From positions 1 through 22,420 of the forward strand of contig RFFU01000049.1 in assembly GCA_003697085.1 (NCBI GenBank): DNA of 22,420 nt. The letters are read 5' to 3'. The notes beneath the pieces are model-generated. The model saw nothing but the letters and a program-made list of their open reading frames with translations. It made no database searches and was not told where the DNA came from. The position numbers and the translations under genes are program-made. Position 1 is the first letter of the stretch. Every line of letters starts with the position of its first letter. Below, piece after piece: positions 8,748 through 16,750 of this stretch. This DNA is from Candidatus Hydrogenedentota bacterium. Its GTDB lineage: Bacteria; UBA8481; J006.

Positions 8748-11321
8748 TTATTCGTCGTTCCCTGCCGGCTCGAAGACCCACGCGTCCTCCGTTCGATCGC
8801 ATCGAACGGTGTCACCCGGTTTAATGGAACCGGCGATCAGTTCCCGCGCGAGGCGCATCTCGATTTCACGTTCGATTACGCGCCGCAAAGGCCTTGCCCC
8901 GAATGCCGGGTCGAAACCCGTTTTTGCAATCCAATGAACGGCATTATCGGAGAGGGTGAGACGAATACCGCGTTGTTCGCAACGCGCGGCGAGGTCCTTC
9001 GCTAACAATCGAACGATCGCTTCGATCTCTTCTTCCGTGAGAGATTTGAAGATAACGATATCGTCGAGGCGGTTGAGGAATTCCGGGCGGAAGTGGCGTT
9101 TCAATTCGGCAAGAATTTCGTTTCGGAGAGCATCCGTGACGACATTTTCGTTGCGAAGGTGGTCCGAGATGATTTCAGTACCAAGATTCGAAGTCATAAT
9201 GATGATGCAGTTTCGAAAATCCACCGTTCGCCCCTGGTTATCGGTCAGGCGGCCATCGTCGAGAATCTGCAGAAAGATATTGAAGACATCGGGATGCGCC
9301 TTTTCGATTTCGTCGAAGAGGAGGACGGAGTACGGTTGACGCCGTACCGCTTCGGTCAACTGCCCCCCTTCATCGTAACCGACGTATCCGGGGGGCGCTC
9401 CGATGAGGCGTGAGACGGAGTGCTTCTCCATATACTCCGTCATATCGATTCGAATCAGTTTCTCCTCACTGTCGAAGAGAACCGCGGCGACGGTCTTCGC
9501 CAATTCGGTCTTGCCGACCCCCGTCGGTCCGAGGAAGAGGAAGGAGCCGGTGGGGCGACGCGGATCCTTGAGACCGGAACGGGAGCGAATGATCGCATCG
9601 GAAACACGCTGTACCGCTTCGTCCTGGCCCACAATGCGTTCGTGAAGGACTTCTTCGAGTCGGAGAAGTTTTTTTCTGTCGGATTCCATCAATTTTTCGA
9701 CGGGGATTCCCGTCCAACGAGCGACGACCGCGGCAATCTCTTCCGGGGTGACTTCTTCGCGCAACAAAGGACGCCGTCCGTTTTCCTGTTCCGTTGCTTG
9801 GAGCGCTTCGAGCTCCTTTTGGAGCTGAGGAAGGACACCGTGCCGCAGTTCCGCGGCACGTTCGAGGTCATAGGTGCGTTCGGCGGTCTCCATATCGATT
9901 CGGGCCTGTTCGATCTTTTCCTTGAGTTCCCGCTGGCGGGAAATTTGACCTTTTTCTTTCTCCCACTGTGCCCGCAATGCGGAGGCCTCTTCTTTCAACT
10001 GTGCGATTTCCGTTCGGATTTCATTGAGTCGCTTTTTGGCGTCCGGTTCCGTATCCTTCGCCAGCGCCGTCTCCTCGATCTCGAGCTGGCGGATCTTGCG
10101 TTCCAGGTTATCCAAAGGCAGGGGAAGACTGTCGATTTCGGTGCGCACCGTCGCCGCAGCCTCATCGACGAGGTCGATCGCCTTGTCGGGGAGGAAGCGG
10201 TCGGTGATGTAGCGGTCGGAGAGACGCGCCGCCTCGAGAAGCGCGGAATCCAGAATCCGAACACCGTGATGAACCTCGAAGCGCTCCTTCAATCCCCGCA
10301 AGATGCTGACCGTTTCTTCAATATTCGGCGGTTCGACAGGGACCGGCTGAAAACGACGTTCAAGCGCCGAATCCTTTTCGATATATTTGCGGTATTCGTC
10401 ATAGGTCGTGGCGCCGATGCAGTGAAGTTCTCCACGGGCCAACATCGGTTTGAGCAGATTGCCCGCGTCCATTGCGCCTTCCGTCTTTCCCGCTCCGACA
10501 ATGAGATGAATCTCGTCGATGAAGAGGATGATACGGCCTTCAGACGCTTTTATCTCGTCGAGAACGGCCTTGAGCCGTTCTTCGAATTCTCCGCGGAATT
10601 TTGCGCCCGCAATCAGTGCCCCCATGTCCAAGGCGAAGATCGTCTTGTCCTTCAGGCCCTCGGGAACGTCCCCGCGGACGATACGTTGGGCCAAGCCTTC
10701 GACCACGGCTGTCTTTCCCGTGCCGGGAGCGCCCACGAGAACCGGGTTGTTCTTCGTCCGGCGGGAAAGGATGCGGATTAGGCGCCGTTGTTCCTCGTCC
10801 CTTCCTATGACAGGATCCAACTTTCCTTCCCGAGCCAAAGAAACGAGATCCCGGCCGTATTTTTCGAGTGCTTCGTAGCGCACCTCGGGAGTCGCTGTGT
10901 CGACCTTACGGTTCCCACGGATTTTCTTTACCGCCTCGGCAAGGCGCTCCTTGGGAAAATCCCATTCCTTTTGTAGAGCCAGGACCAGGTGTTCGACACT
11001 GATGTAGTGATCTCCCATCTTTTCCCGTTCGCTGTCCGCGTCGAGGAGGACCTTCGAGGTGCGGCGGGAGAGTTGCGGCTGCGGAAGAGAATCGCCTGTT
11101 ACGGAAGGGAGGCGATCGAGCGCGCGTTTGAGGCGTTCATTGAGGTCTTGAAGATTTGCTCCGGCGGTCTCAAGAATACGGGGGGCGTAAGAACCCTCTG
11201 TGTTAAGAGAGGCTACGGCGAGGTGAACCGGCTCGATCTCTTGATGTGACCGGTGAAGAGCAAGATCAAAGGCTGTTTGTACGACGGCGCGCGTCTTTTC
11301 GGTCCATCGTTCCGGGTTCAT
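8748..11321 (-). CDS. clpB: ClpB, ATP-dependent protein disaggregase
   Basis: Hexameric AAA+ chaperone that, with DnaK, resolubilises aggregated proteins after heat or other stress. The chosen ATG (11321) gives 857 aa, the usual ClpB length, begins [17 protein letters not shown] like family members and has AGGAGG five bases upstream; the longer frame from 11399 adds 26 unlikely residues. Domains: Clp N-terminal repeats (about 1-145); first AAA module with Walker A GAPGTGKT at 197-204 and Walker [11 protein letters not shown]; long coiled-coil middle domain (about 400-520; [40 protein letters not shown]) characteristic of ClpB rather than ClpA/C; second module with GPTGVGKT at 598-605 and [30 protein letters not shown]-terminal small domain. 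No CIRCE-type element seen upstream. Confidence 0.97.
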
Positions 11322-12462: not shown

Positions 12463-14418
12463 TTACTCCTCGTATTGCGCCTTGAGCCTTTCCATGACGG
12501 AGGCATCGGCTAGGGTCGTGACATTGCCCAACGCCCGTCCCGTGGCAATATCTCGCAAGAGGCGCCGCATGATCTTTCCGGAGCGAGTTTTCGGGAGTTC
12601 GGAGGAGAAGATAATCTTTTCGGGGCGCGCGAACTTTCCGATCTTTTTTGCGATCAAGTCATTGAGTTCAGCGAGGAGGTCCTCCGTTCCCTCGGCTCCC
12701 TCGCGAAGGCTGCAAAATGCCACAAGGGCTTGGCCCTTGAGATCGTGAGGGATACCGATGACGGCGCTTTCAGCGACGGCGGGATGTTCGACGAAAGCGC
12801 TCTCCAATTCCGCGGTTCCGATTCGGTGTCCCGCGACATTCACGACGTCATCGACACGGCCGAGGATCCAGAAGTAACCGTCGGAGTCCTTCCGGGCTCC
12901 GTCCCCGGGGAAATAGACACCGGGCCACTTTGACCAATAGGTTTCCTTGAACCGTTCTGCATCGCCGTAGATGCCGCGGAGCATTCCCGGCCAAGGTTTG
13001 CGAATTGCAAGAAACCCGGCTGTGGTCTCCTTTCCCTCGTCATCAAGCACGGCCGCGTCGATTCCGAAAAACGGCAGCGTGGCGCTGCCGGGTTTGGTGG
13101 GGACACAGCCCGGCAAGGGAGTGATCATAATTCCTCCGGTTTCCGTCTGCCACCACGTATCCACGATCGGGCACCGCTCTTTTCCGATCGTTGTATGGTA
13201 CCACATCCATGCCTCGGGATTGATCGGTTCGCCGACGGTTCCGAGAAGGCGAAGGGAGGAGAGATCATACTTTTCAGGCCATCGGTCCCCCCACTTCATA
13301 AAGGCGCGGATTGCGGTCGGCGCCGTATAAAAGAGCGTCACTCCATACTTTTCGATTAATTCCCAGAAACGTCCCTTGTCGGGAGTATCGGGTGCCCCCT
13401 CGTACATCAGAACCGTCGCGCCGTTTGCGAGCGGTCCGTACACAATATAACTGTGTCCCGTGATCCAGCCGATGTCCGCCGTGCACCAAAAGACGTCTTC
13501 CGGACGGATATCGAAGACGTACTTTGTCGTCAGATAGGTATAGACCATATACCCGCCGGTCGTATGGATGATCCCTTTCGGCTTCCCGGTGGTGCCGCTG
13601 GTGTAAAGCAAGAAGAGCGTCTCCTCGCTGTCCATTGGTTCCGCGTCGCAATCGGAAGAAGCCTCCTCGATGAGGCGATGATACCAGTGGTCTCGCCCTT
13701 CCTTGACGCGGCACGGGAAGGGATCTCCGGAGGCCCGTTTCACGACGACGACGTTCTTCACACAGTCGCAGTCGGAGATCGCCTCATCGACGATCTTCTT
13801 GAGGGGCAAGACGTTTCCCCGACGCCATCCCCCGTCGGCGGTGATAACGAGGGAGCAGGAACAATCGAGCACCCGGTCGCGGATCGATTCGGCGGAGAAT
13901 CCGGCGAAGATCACCGAGTGAATCGCGCCGATTCTGGCGCAGGCGAGAACACTGACGGCAAGTTCAGGAATCATGGGGAGGTAGATCGCAACTCGATCCC
14001 CCTTTTTCACGCCAAGCGATTTCAGGGAATTAGCGAATTTACGAACTTCCCGTGCCAAATCCCAGTAGGTCAAAACCCGTCGTTCGCCGGGCTCCCCTTC
14101 CCAGATGATCGCGGCCTTGTTTCGCGTGGCGGAGTCGAGATGTCGATCGAGGCAGTTGTAACTGATGTTGGTCTTGCCGTTTACGAACCACTGAAAGAAG
14201 GGGGCATTCGTTTCATCGAGAACCGTATCCCATTTTTTGAACCAATGAAGTTCTCCGGCGATTTTTCCCCAAAACGATTCCGGATTGGAAAGACTTTCCT
14301 CGTACATTCTTCGATATTCGGAAAGATTCTTGATCCTTGCCCGGGAGCGAAACGCGTCGTTCGGGGCGAAGACGCGGGTCTCTTCCAACCGAGTTTCCAG
14401 AAGACCGTCTTTTTTCAC
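12463..14418 (-). CDS. acs: Acetyl-CoA synthetase (AMP-forming acetate-CoA ligase)
   Basis: Activates acetate with ATP and CoA to acetyl-CoA plus AMP and PPi through an acetyl-adenylate, in the cytosol. 651 aa, full length. Motifs: N-terminal [43 protein letters not shown]; the phosphate-binding loop [32 protein letters not shown]; the Asp/Arg hinge region [27 protein letters not shown]; and the C-terminal catalytic Lys615 in [11 protein letters not shown], the residue regulated by acetylation in characterised homologues. The start is GTG at 14418, supported by AAAGGAGGG 6 bases upstream. It is the first gene of its unit; the DtxR-family regulator follows within 30-120 bp depending on its start. 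No acetylase or deacetylase gene is nearby. Confidence 0.97.
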
Positions 14419-14586
14419 GATGCCCTCCTTTCAGGAACAGAAGACGGGATTGTAAGGCGGATGATCTTATCAGGAAGAGGAAAAATGAGAACCACGGAAG
14501 ACACGGAAAATGAGAAAGTCAAAAGTCAAAAATCAAAAGGCAAAAGGAAGAAGGGGAAAGGAAAAAGGGAACATGAGATGTGGAGC

Positions 14587-14604
14587 GCAGACTCTCCAGT
14601 CTGC
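14587..14604. repeat. Perfect 7-bp stem-loop GCAGACT-CTCC-AGTCTGC
   Basis: Two perfectly complementary 7-bp arms around a 4-nt loop, immediately left of the inverted-repeat element. No T-tract follows. It could be part of the same repeat family, or a short transcript-end or protein-binding palindrome. Confidence 0.5.
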
Positions 14605-14625
14605 GAATTGCCGATCCGCCCGTGG

Positions 14626-14790
14626 TGTCATTCCGAGGCGGCGCAGCCCGACGAGGAATCCCCCAAGATTGCTGACAACCGCCTCGTTCTCCCTCGCCCC
14701 TCGGGGGAGAGGGTTGGGATAAGGGGGGCGTATTGGCACCATGTCGTGATACCGCGTGAAGGGGATTCCTCGCTGGCGCTCGGAATGACA
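14626..14790. repeat. 165-bp inverted-repeat (MITE-like) intergenic element
   Basis: The left end reads TGTCATTCCGAG (14626-14637) then CGAGGAATCCCC (14652-14663). The right end reads GGGGATTCCTCG (14761-14772) then CTCGGAATGACA (14779-14790), the exact reverse complements of these two blocks. Between them lies a second fold (TCTCCC at 14689-14694 with GGGAGA at 14705-14710, in a C-run/G-run context). It codes for nothing. The structure fits a non-autonomous palindromic element; target-site duplication was not evident. Confidence 0.65.
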
Positions 14791-14857
14791 ACGCGGACGC
14801 CTATTCGTCCCCCCTTATTCCCGGATTCCGAAACCGCTGCCCGTTTCGCAAGTCATG

Positions 14858-14886
14858 TTGTCAGAGGAGTAGTGACGGGGTATGCT
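14858..14886 (+). promoter_or_regulatory. Sigma-70-type promoter for the small frameshifted gene
   Basis: TTGTCA (14858-14863), 17-bp spacer, TATGCT (14881-14886). The -35 and spacer are the same as in the atpA promoter. It would start transcription near 14893, about 50 nt before the ATG at 14945, which has GGAGG at 14933-14937 seven bases upstream. Confidence 0.45.
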
Positions 14887-14944
14887 GGAAATGAAAGGTG
14901 CCCAAGGAATAGGCGGTGTTTGGATACATTGTGGAGGGTTTGCA

Positions 14945-15274
14945 ATGCTGAAGAAGGCCATAAGGGATATATTGGGAAAAACGATCACCGGCGTCCAGGT
15001 TCACAGGTGGTTTCCGCTTGGGTAAGGAAAAGACGGGGGGGCATTTGGGTGGGGACTTCCGCCGGGGACGTGTGATCTCCTTTATCTTTTTTTCAGTGAT
15101 GGAACTTCCTATGAGATTAGCGCGAATGGAACACTTAACTCAGTCGGGACACTGGGTGTAGGACGTCCCGAAAGTCAAAGAGATCTTTCGAACACGCCGG
15201 ACGCAATTGTTATTTATGATGCAGAACTGGAGGACGGGGAAATACGCATCAACGTCGATGCCATTCGTGAATAA
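14945..15274 (+). pseudogene. Small hypothetical gene disrupted by two compensating frameshifts
   Basis: ATG 14945 has a strong ribosome binding site (GGAGG, 7-base spacing) and reads MLKKAIRDILGKTITGVQVHRWFPLG before TAA at 15023-15025. If the frame moves by one base in the GGG at 15020-15022, reading continues as GKEKTGGHLGGDFRRGRVISFIFF. If it moves back in the T7 run at 15087-15093, it continues SDGTSYEISANGTLNSVG, ends IRINVDAIRE and stops at TAA 15272-15274. All three parts are protein-like (about 108 aa in total), whereas the uninterrupted frame gives one in-frame stop and a poor middle. Family not recognised. The likely explanation is decay or sequencing error in homopolymers; programmed slippage on the T7 run is possible but unproven. 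It has its own promoter and lies upstream of the DUF4143 ATPase. Confidence 0.55.
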
Positions 15275-15429: not shown

Positions 15430-15459
15430 ACTCCACTTTACTAATGAGTAAAATGGAGT
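15430..15459. promoter_or_regulatory. 30-bp inverted repeat (operator-like) overlapping the DUF4143 promoter
   Basis: ACTCCACTTTACT (15430-15442) and AGTAAAATGGAGT (15447-15459) are inverted repeats with one mismatch, separated by AATG. A further half-site GTAAAATGGA lies just upstream (15416-15425). The repeat spans the proposed -35 and spacer of the ATPase promoter and ends where the -10 begins, a classic repressor-site position. Confidence 0.55.
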
Positions 15460-15464
15460 ATAGT
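15437..15464 (+). promoter_or_regulatory. Promoter of the DUF4143 ATPase, likely leaderless transcript
   Basis: TTTACT (15437-15442, 4 of 6 matches) and TATAGT (15459-15464, 5 of 6) with a 16-bp spacer. The predicted start is about 15471, next to the GTG at 15472, which has no Shine-Dalgarno sequence; a leaderless mRNA is therefore plausible. Confidence 0.4.
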
Positions 15465-15471
15465 CCTAAAT

Positions 15472-16614
15472 GTGGATAAGATTGAGAGATATCTGTATCG
15501 GCATATCGAGAAGGTGTTGAGGCGAGGAAAGATGGTCTTTATCGGTGGGCCGAGGCAGGTAGGGAAGACGACGCTTGCCCTTCGGTTTCTCGGGAGCGAG
15601 ACCGGAGCGGAGGATCCAGCGTATTTCAACTGGGATGATCCTCGAGACCGTCCTCATATCAGAAACGCGGAAATTCCTCCAGATTCCGACGTCGTCATCT
15701 TCGATGAGATTCACAAGTACGCGCGTTGGCGGAACCTGATCAAGGGAATTTACGATACCGAGGGGCATCGTCGGCGAATTATCGTAACGGGTTCCGCTCG
15801 GCTCGATTATTACCGAAAGGGAGGGGATTCGCTAGCCAACCGTTATCGTTATTTTCGGCTTCATCCGTTTTCGCTGCCGGAGTGGGAAGCAAAACGTGGA
15901 GACGGTTCGATGGACGCGCTCTTGAGATTTGGAGGATTTCCGGAGCCGTTGATACGCGGAGACGAAACGGAACATCGGATCTGGCAACGAGACCGTCTAT
16001 CGAGGGTTGTCGGGGAAGACCTACGAGATCTCGAACGGGTGCGCGAGATCAGCCTCGTGGAACATCTCGTGGATCTTCTTCCAGACCGGGTCGGAGCCCC
16101 CTTGTCCTTGGCCAATCTTCGCCAAGATCTCGAGGTCGATCACAAGACGGTGGCGCGGTGGATCGAGATTCTCGAGAATATGTATCTCTGTTTCCGGATT
16201 GCGCCTTACGGTGTCCCGCGGATTCGGGCGGTAAAGAAGGAACAGAAACTTTATCTTTGGGACTGGTCACGAGTACCGGACGCTGGCGCGCGTTTTGAGA
16301 ACATGGTCGCCTCCCAACTCTTGAAGTATTGCCACCTCATCGAAGACACGGAAGGGAGAAGAATGGAGTTGCGTTATCTCCGGGACACGGACAAGCGGGA
16401 GGTCGATTTCGTTGTTTTATGTGAAGGGAAGCCCTTGTTCGCGGTCGAGGCGAAGGCCGGGGAACGTTCTGTTTCGACCGCCGTGCGTTATTTTTCCGAG
16501 CGGACCCCGATACCGAAGTTCTATCAGGTTCATCTCGGCCATCGGTATTTTGCGAAGGGCAAAGTCACAGTCTTGCCGTTCCGGAAATTTTGTTCGGTGG
16601 AGAAGATGCCGTAG
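15472..16614 (+). CDS. AAA-family ATPase with DUF4143 domain
   Basis: 380-aa ATP-binding protein of the AAA_14-DUF4143 type, a widespread family of unsettled function. N-terminal P-loop GPRQVGKT at residues 26-33; Walker B VVIFDEIHKYARW; sensor-like IIVTGSARLDYYRKGGDSLANRYRYFRLHPFSLPEW. The C-terminal DUF4143 part contains a nuclease-fold pattern, DKREVDFVVLCEGKPLFAVEAKAG, with Asp and Glu-x-Lys in place. The start is the only one available after an upstream in-frame TGA: GTG at 15472, with no ribosome binding site, so the mRNA is probably leaderless. No antitoxin, methylase or partner gene adjoins it; the nearest upstream gene is the frameshifted small gene. It stands alone between repeat-rich segments, and lateral movement is possible. 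Confidence 0.9.
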   Translation: MDKIERYLYRHIEKVLRRGKMVFIGGPRQVGKTTLALRFLGSETGAEDPAYFNWDDPRDRPHIRNAEIPPDSDVVIFDEIHKYARWRNLIKGIYDTEGHRRRIIVTGSARLDYYRKGGDSLANRYRYFRLHPFSLPEWEAKRGDGSMDALLRFGGFPEPLIRGDETEHRIWQRDRLSRVVGEDLRDLERVREISLVEHLVDLLPDRVGAPLSLANLRQDLEVDHKTVARWIEILENMYLCFRIAPYGVPRIRAVKKEQKLYLWDWSRVPDAGARFENMVASQLLKYCHLIEDTEGRRMELRYLRDTDKREVDFVVLCEGKPLFAVEAKAGERSVSTAVRYFSERTPIPKFYQVHLGHRYFAKGKVTVLPFRKFCSVEKMP

Positions 16615-16643
16615 CGGATTCGAGGCAAGTTGCATCAGGAATC

Positions 16644-16750
16644 CCACGGAAACACGGAATGCACGGAAGGGAGGGGAACCACGGACCACACGGAATACAC
16701 GGAAGAGGGGGTAATACGGAATACACGGAAAGAACGGAAGAAAAGGGAAC
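16644..16750. repeat. Cluster of degenerate CACGGAA direct repeats
   Basis: The heptamer CACGGAA or close variants recurs about nine times in just over 100 bp at irregular 8-18-bp spacing, in forms such as ACACGGAAT, GCACGGAAG, ATACACGGAA and GAACGGAAG. A shorter copy of the same pattern occurs near 14492-14509 upstream of acs, so it is a dispersed family. The irregular spacing rules out a CRISPR array, and there is no open frame of note. Confidence 0.65.

Follow-up and report, generated by a model that had tools for sequence, protein, structure and literature searches.

The window, the whole stretch of 22,420 nucleotides analysed here, comes from a 3.2 Mb draft genome in 145 contigs. About 1 kb without an obvious gene separates acs (12463-14418, minus strand) from a gene for an AAA/DUF4143 ATPase (15472-16614, plus strand), and this interval holds a small locus at 14945-15274. 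Its features are listed below; profile positions refer to an unnamed protein family of about 80 amino acids.

14858-14886, plus strand: sigma-70-like TTGTCA-N17-TATGCT, 9 of 12 positions, little above chance
14933-14937, plus strand: GGAGG, ribosome-binding-like, 7 nt 5' of the ATG
14945, plus strand: ATG start codon of the small locus, read from the sequence
14945-15022, plus strand: N-terminal segment MLKKAIRDILGKTITGVQVHRWFPLG, profile positions 2-19, first beta strand region
15002-15082, plus strand: loop joining strands 1 and 2, enlarged to 27 codons with the TAA counted, placed by alignments, with strand positions from the family model
15018-15092, plus strand: second-frame stretch LGKEKTGGHLGGDFRRGRVISFIFF proposed in the initial annotation, open, codon score 6.38 nats
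15023-15025, plus strand: in-frame TAA, the main lesion, read from the sequence
15083-15271, plus strand: frame-1 core with the C-terminal segment, YLFFSDGTSYEISANG...DAIRE, matching profile positions 29-66
15087-15093, plus strand: T7 run, the proposed second slip site, read from the sequence
15272-15274, plus strand: closing TAA of the locus, read from the sequence

Reading of the sequence bears out the initial annotation as to the ATG, the TAA at a GGG, the T7 run, the stop at 15272-15274, the GGAGG and the frames of the segments. From the ATG, frame 1 encodes MLKKAIRDILGKTITGVQVHRWFPLG up to the TAA at 15023-15025 and then GKDGGAFGWGLPPGTCDLLYLFFSDGTSYEISANGTLNSVGTLGVGRPESQRDLSNTPDAIVIYDAELEDGEIRINVDAIRE up to the closing TAA; SDGTSYEISANGTLNSVG... 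runs on to that same stop. The second frame, which contains DFRRGRVISFIFF, is open without a break from about 15018 to 15092. In the initial annotation, segments in these two frames were joined by two compensating frameshifts, and the bases between VQVH and DFRR, which also translate (RWFPLGKEKTGGHLGG on the two-shift path), were omitted. Frame 1 crosses the T7 run as LLYLFFSDGTSYEI and so needs no change of frame there. The locus had also been credited with its own promoter and ribosome binding site: the latter stands, with the GGAGG well placed before the ATG, but sites of the TTGTCA-N17-TATGCT type occur twice in 1.2 kb against a shuffle mean of 0.8, which makes the putative promoter unremarkable.

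Several other elements are found in the same neighbourhood. Positions 14480-14813, just 5' of the small locus, hold an interspersed mosaic repeat that looks like a REP/MITE-type element, with arms TCATTCCGAG...CGAGGAATCCCC (14617-14637 with 14779-14799) and 77 matching pieces in its own genome including itself, many at 70-94% identity. Degenerate CACGGAA-type short repeats are clustered at 16640-16750, after the DUF4143 gene, and a related copy lies at 14479-14509. The ATPase encoded at 15472-16614 (AAA_14/DUF4143) matches the PADLOC candidate defence model PDC-S01, and directly 5' of its gene a near-perfect palindrome, ACTCCACTTTACTaatgAGTAAAATGGAGT (15431-15460), looks like an operator.

Does an open path with two shifts indicate a gene? 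In dinucleotide-shuffled intergenic DNA, 2336 of 4145 ATGs (56%) start a path that runs for 90 codons or more with no more than two shifts, and the spliced path alone is therefore weak evidence. Its codon score of 12.4 is reached by 1.6% in shuffled DNA and falls short of the lower quartile for true genes (15.4; median 21.6). The non-gene ATGs of the genome were dropped as a comparison, since that set was contaminated by short and truncated real genes. It is the match to a protein family, and not the spliced path, that makes the locus real.

This family was not reached by the route suggested in the initial annotation, a search of genomes with the spliced translation. The spliced protein matched only itself in its own genome and gave chance-level matches only in 386 other genomes; no homologue was found among GTDB contigs (searched with short peptides), plasmids, phages, viral contigs and the PDB (by sequence), or in NCBIfam, PHROGs and PADLOC. 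In a second genome of the phylum, an order relative that is 86% complete, the small-gene search gave no match and a search for acs gave weak, distant matches only; synteny was of no help. The family was found instead by scanning GTDB contigs with a degenerate DNA pattern for the core motif, F-x-hydrophobic-F-x-D-G-T-x-Y-E. The scan returned 33 loci, nine of which encode one coherent family, and profile searches added two further, more diverged members. The intact or contig-edge members are L079, L086, L088, L091, L093, L096, L099, L107, L108, L123, and L124.

Members of the family are typically about 75-85 amino acids long, share the consensus GK[TR]I.G.VV...Q[LV]FLVF.DGTYYEFY, and are carried by metagenome-assembled genomes (MAGs) of Gemmatimonadota, Planctomycetota, Proteobacteria (Gammaproteobacteria and a 'Deltaproteobacteria' MAG), and Bacillota; an example from a Planctomycetota MAG is MKHAIAEILGKTVSGVVVKENGRPPHTQVFLMFRDGTHYELYGEYFTGAGGVDRGTAEEIKSKGQPGGKIVFEVHEGA. 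Thus, the continuous-frame relatives anticipated by the initial annotation do exist, but they are shorter than the predicted length of about 108 residues. One of the two more diverged members, in L124, ends in IVFEAALE, close to the IVIYDAELE of the broken locus. The family is rare, with one to two carriers in each of three samples of 195, 372, and 350 genomes (seed genomes included), and its profile found no additional member among 386 diverse genomes, viral contigs, and plasmids. A looser motif scan of viral contigs returned unrelated proteins, and no intact paralogue was found in the locus's own genome.

AlphaFold, given eleven members, predicted with good confidence (pLDDT 88.7, pTM 0.79) a compact, single-helix beta protein. 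The family fold is accordingly predicted to be a small antiparallel beta-sheet with a single helix, in which Q[LV]FLxFxDGTxYE would form a conserved hairpin. When the family model was compared by Foldseek and VIA-align, no structure stood out as a relative (best E 0.09; best Z 5.8); a model of the core folded alone was of low confidence (57.6) and was set aside. Three members tested against Pfam and NCBIfam gave nothing above cut-off. The locus shows a weak local beta-hairpin resemblance to MoaF_like (PF22036), but at 16.2 bits it falls below the cut-off of 27, the three intact members are without a match to it, and PF22036 has no match in the own genome.

The evidence that the locus belongs to this family comes from a profile of ten members run on six-frame translations covering 272,646 bases of the genome that carries it. 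The two best matches are the core, at 19.7 bits (profile positions 29-65), and the N-terminal part, at 13.8 bits (positions 2-19); the third-best match scores 4.5 bits. The two lie on the same strand and in the same frame, are adjacent, and follow the order of the family. The core contains the FxDGTxYE hairpin and the C-terminal part (19.7-20.2 bits). Its score is partly circular and not independent, as the family was chosen by means of the core motif. By contrast, the N-terminal half played no part in that choice and is thus an independent match; it carries the GKxIxG strand motif and scores 16.3 bits alone, while the best of 2000 shuffles reaches 6.9 bits. The suggestion that the sequence represents an unannotated protein family member is upheld by these two matches.

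Could the locus be no gene at all, but a set of chance open segments resembling a family that was retrieved by their own motif? The way in which the family was found and the frequency of two-shift paths in shuffled DNA both fit such a reading. The N-terminal half does not: it was matched independently, in the right order, spacing, and frame, and is the second-best match in the genome sample. A chance resemblance is therefore very unlikely.

The locus shares with the family the N-terminal GKxIxGV strand and the Q[LV]FLxFxDGTxYE hairpin in the same order, and frame 1 retains nine of the 12 invariant or near-invariant residues. It differs in its architecture. The members have one continuous frame with a first loop of 11-14 residues, whereas here a loop of 27 codons contains a TAA. 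The locus is thus a broken copy of the family and not a working member. The invariant Q28 before the second strand has been lost (frame 1 has a leucine there and the second frame an isoleucine), which, judged from the alignment, is more in keeping with a diverged relic than with a working member of the usual kind.

Both conserved halves are in frame 1, and no frameshift is required to connect them. Contrary to the idea of two compensating frameshifts, the shift at the T7 run gains nothing: frame 1 gives the core 20.2 bits and the two-shift route 18.1 bits, and the second frame contributes no more than the loop plus an alternative strand, at a slightly lower score and with nothing for the family match. 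A score for a version with part of the loop omitted was also computed and was left out of the evidence. Over the disputed stretch, codon usage mildly favours the second frame (5.75 nats against 3.08 in frame 1, a difference of 2.7), which keeps the two-frameshift route in play, but that route is unnecessary and the simpler one suffices.

The same observations bear on whether the gene is in fact intact, with about 108 codons and a loop of unusual length, and is broken in the assembly only, by two indel errors. Codon usage at 15018-15092 resembles that of genes (0.255 nats per codon), the stretch keeps a phenylalanine at the conserved F30 column, and both a G7 and a T7 run lie close by. On the other hand, two independent errors would be needed, the core fits the family no better on that path, and the G7 run (15035-15041) lies 3' of the TAA and so cannot be the first shift site. 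The long neighbouring genes are intact despite T6-T7 and G6-G7 runs. Among the intact genes of the window, T7 occurs in clpB and mntR, and G7 in pcnB, mntR, and atpD; T7 is found inside intact genes at 9669, 11709, and 11765. These runs weaken both the sequencing-error and the slippage ideas, and a pair of assembly errors is considered unlikely.

The gene might instead be live, with a joined product arising from recoding, either through polymerase or ribosome slippage at two sites or through readthrough of the stop; the otherwise open frame, the ribosome-binding-like site, and the retained family residues would be consistent with this. Several points argue against it. There is no excess of RNA structure (fold z +0.69), and the T7 run falls short of the nine A or T cited for transcriptional slippage in bacteria (PMC5009743). 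Efficient shifting would be needed twice, in opposite directions, and the frame is continuous in all relatives found, so the arrangement is not conserved among them, although none of them is close. Such expression is extremely improbable.

Alternatively, the TAA and some 45 extra bases might form a gap that is skipped by ribosomes taking off from the GGG next to the TAA, in the manner of a gene 60-like bypass, or passed by paired slippage, so that a joined protein would still be made. The likeness to T4 gene 60 is that a glycine codon is followed at once by a stop, with about 45 nt of extra sequence until the match to the family is taken up again. GGG precedes the TAA and recurs farther on, as candidate take-off and landing codons, but in a stretch that is rich in G. 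In contrast to gene 60, no special RNA structure and no sign that the gap is conserved were seen, and a take-off signal would be hypothetical. This reading is extremely improbable.

An ordinary dead gene (pseudogene) is the most likely explanation. The locus is quite probably a decayed copy of the unnamed family, and one probably acquired horizontally. The TAA, placed within the enlarged turn between the first two predicted strands, interrupts conserved halves that share a single frame. Translation from the ATG at 14945 would yield a stub of 26 residues only, and the core would not be made separately, as no ATG, GTG, or TTG restart codon exists in frame 1 after the TAA. The locus is thus most likely without a working product, and we infer that its function has been lost. 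The initial annotation had left open a decaying gene, a sequencing error, or a slippage-expressed product; the first is favoured, and the other two found no support.

A diverged but still useful gene might instead persist only as the 26-residue stub, a short peptide, or as a regulatory leader. The ATG and its well-spaced GGAGG are compatible with this proposal. Against it, in the predicted fold the stub would stop at the turn that follows strand 1, and the next gene begins about 450 bases downstream with its own promoter-like site and palindrome. A retained peptide or leader is highly improbable.

Decay as the preferred reading is not without points against it. Across about 109 codons there is only one stop, and the ribosome-binding site is good; these features are also compatible with a gene inactivated recently, with recoding, or with an error in the sequence. 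Codon usage in the loop slightly favours the second frame. Base composition bears on the origin of the gene. Over the core (15095-15271), GC1 (0.61) and GC2 (0.44) are coding-like, and GC3 is 0.39 compared with a median of 0.68 for genes; all 973 gene pieces of the genome lie above the core's value, in a comparison set that was picked by codon score and leaves atypical genes out. Together with the patchy distribution of the family, this low GC3 points to acquisition from outside followed by decay.

The dead gene itself is of little consequence, and the useful by-product of its analysis is the intact family: a small protein in MAGs of several phyla, whose tested members have no Pfam or NCBIfam match and whose gene, in some genomes, adjoins restriction, CRISPR, or toxin-like genes. 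The neighbours of one intact member encode a Mrr-type restriction enzyme and an OLD-like ATPase (L125), those of a second an IrrE-like protein and a DUF4411 protein (L132), and those of a third Cas1 and a WYL regulator (L134), while a fourth lies next to an IS200-type transposase (L129). The scattered distribution and the presence of defence or mobile genes beside these four members, a handful of cases without a control, suggest that the intact family is an accessory protein borne on genome islands. It is a candidate accessory protein worth naming.
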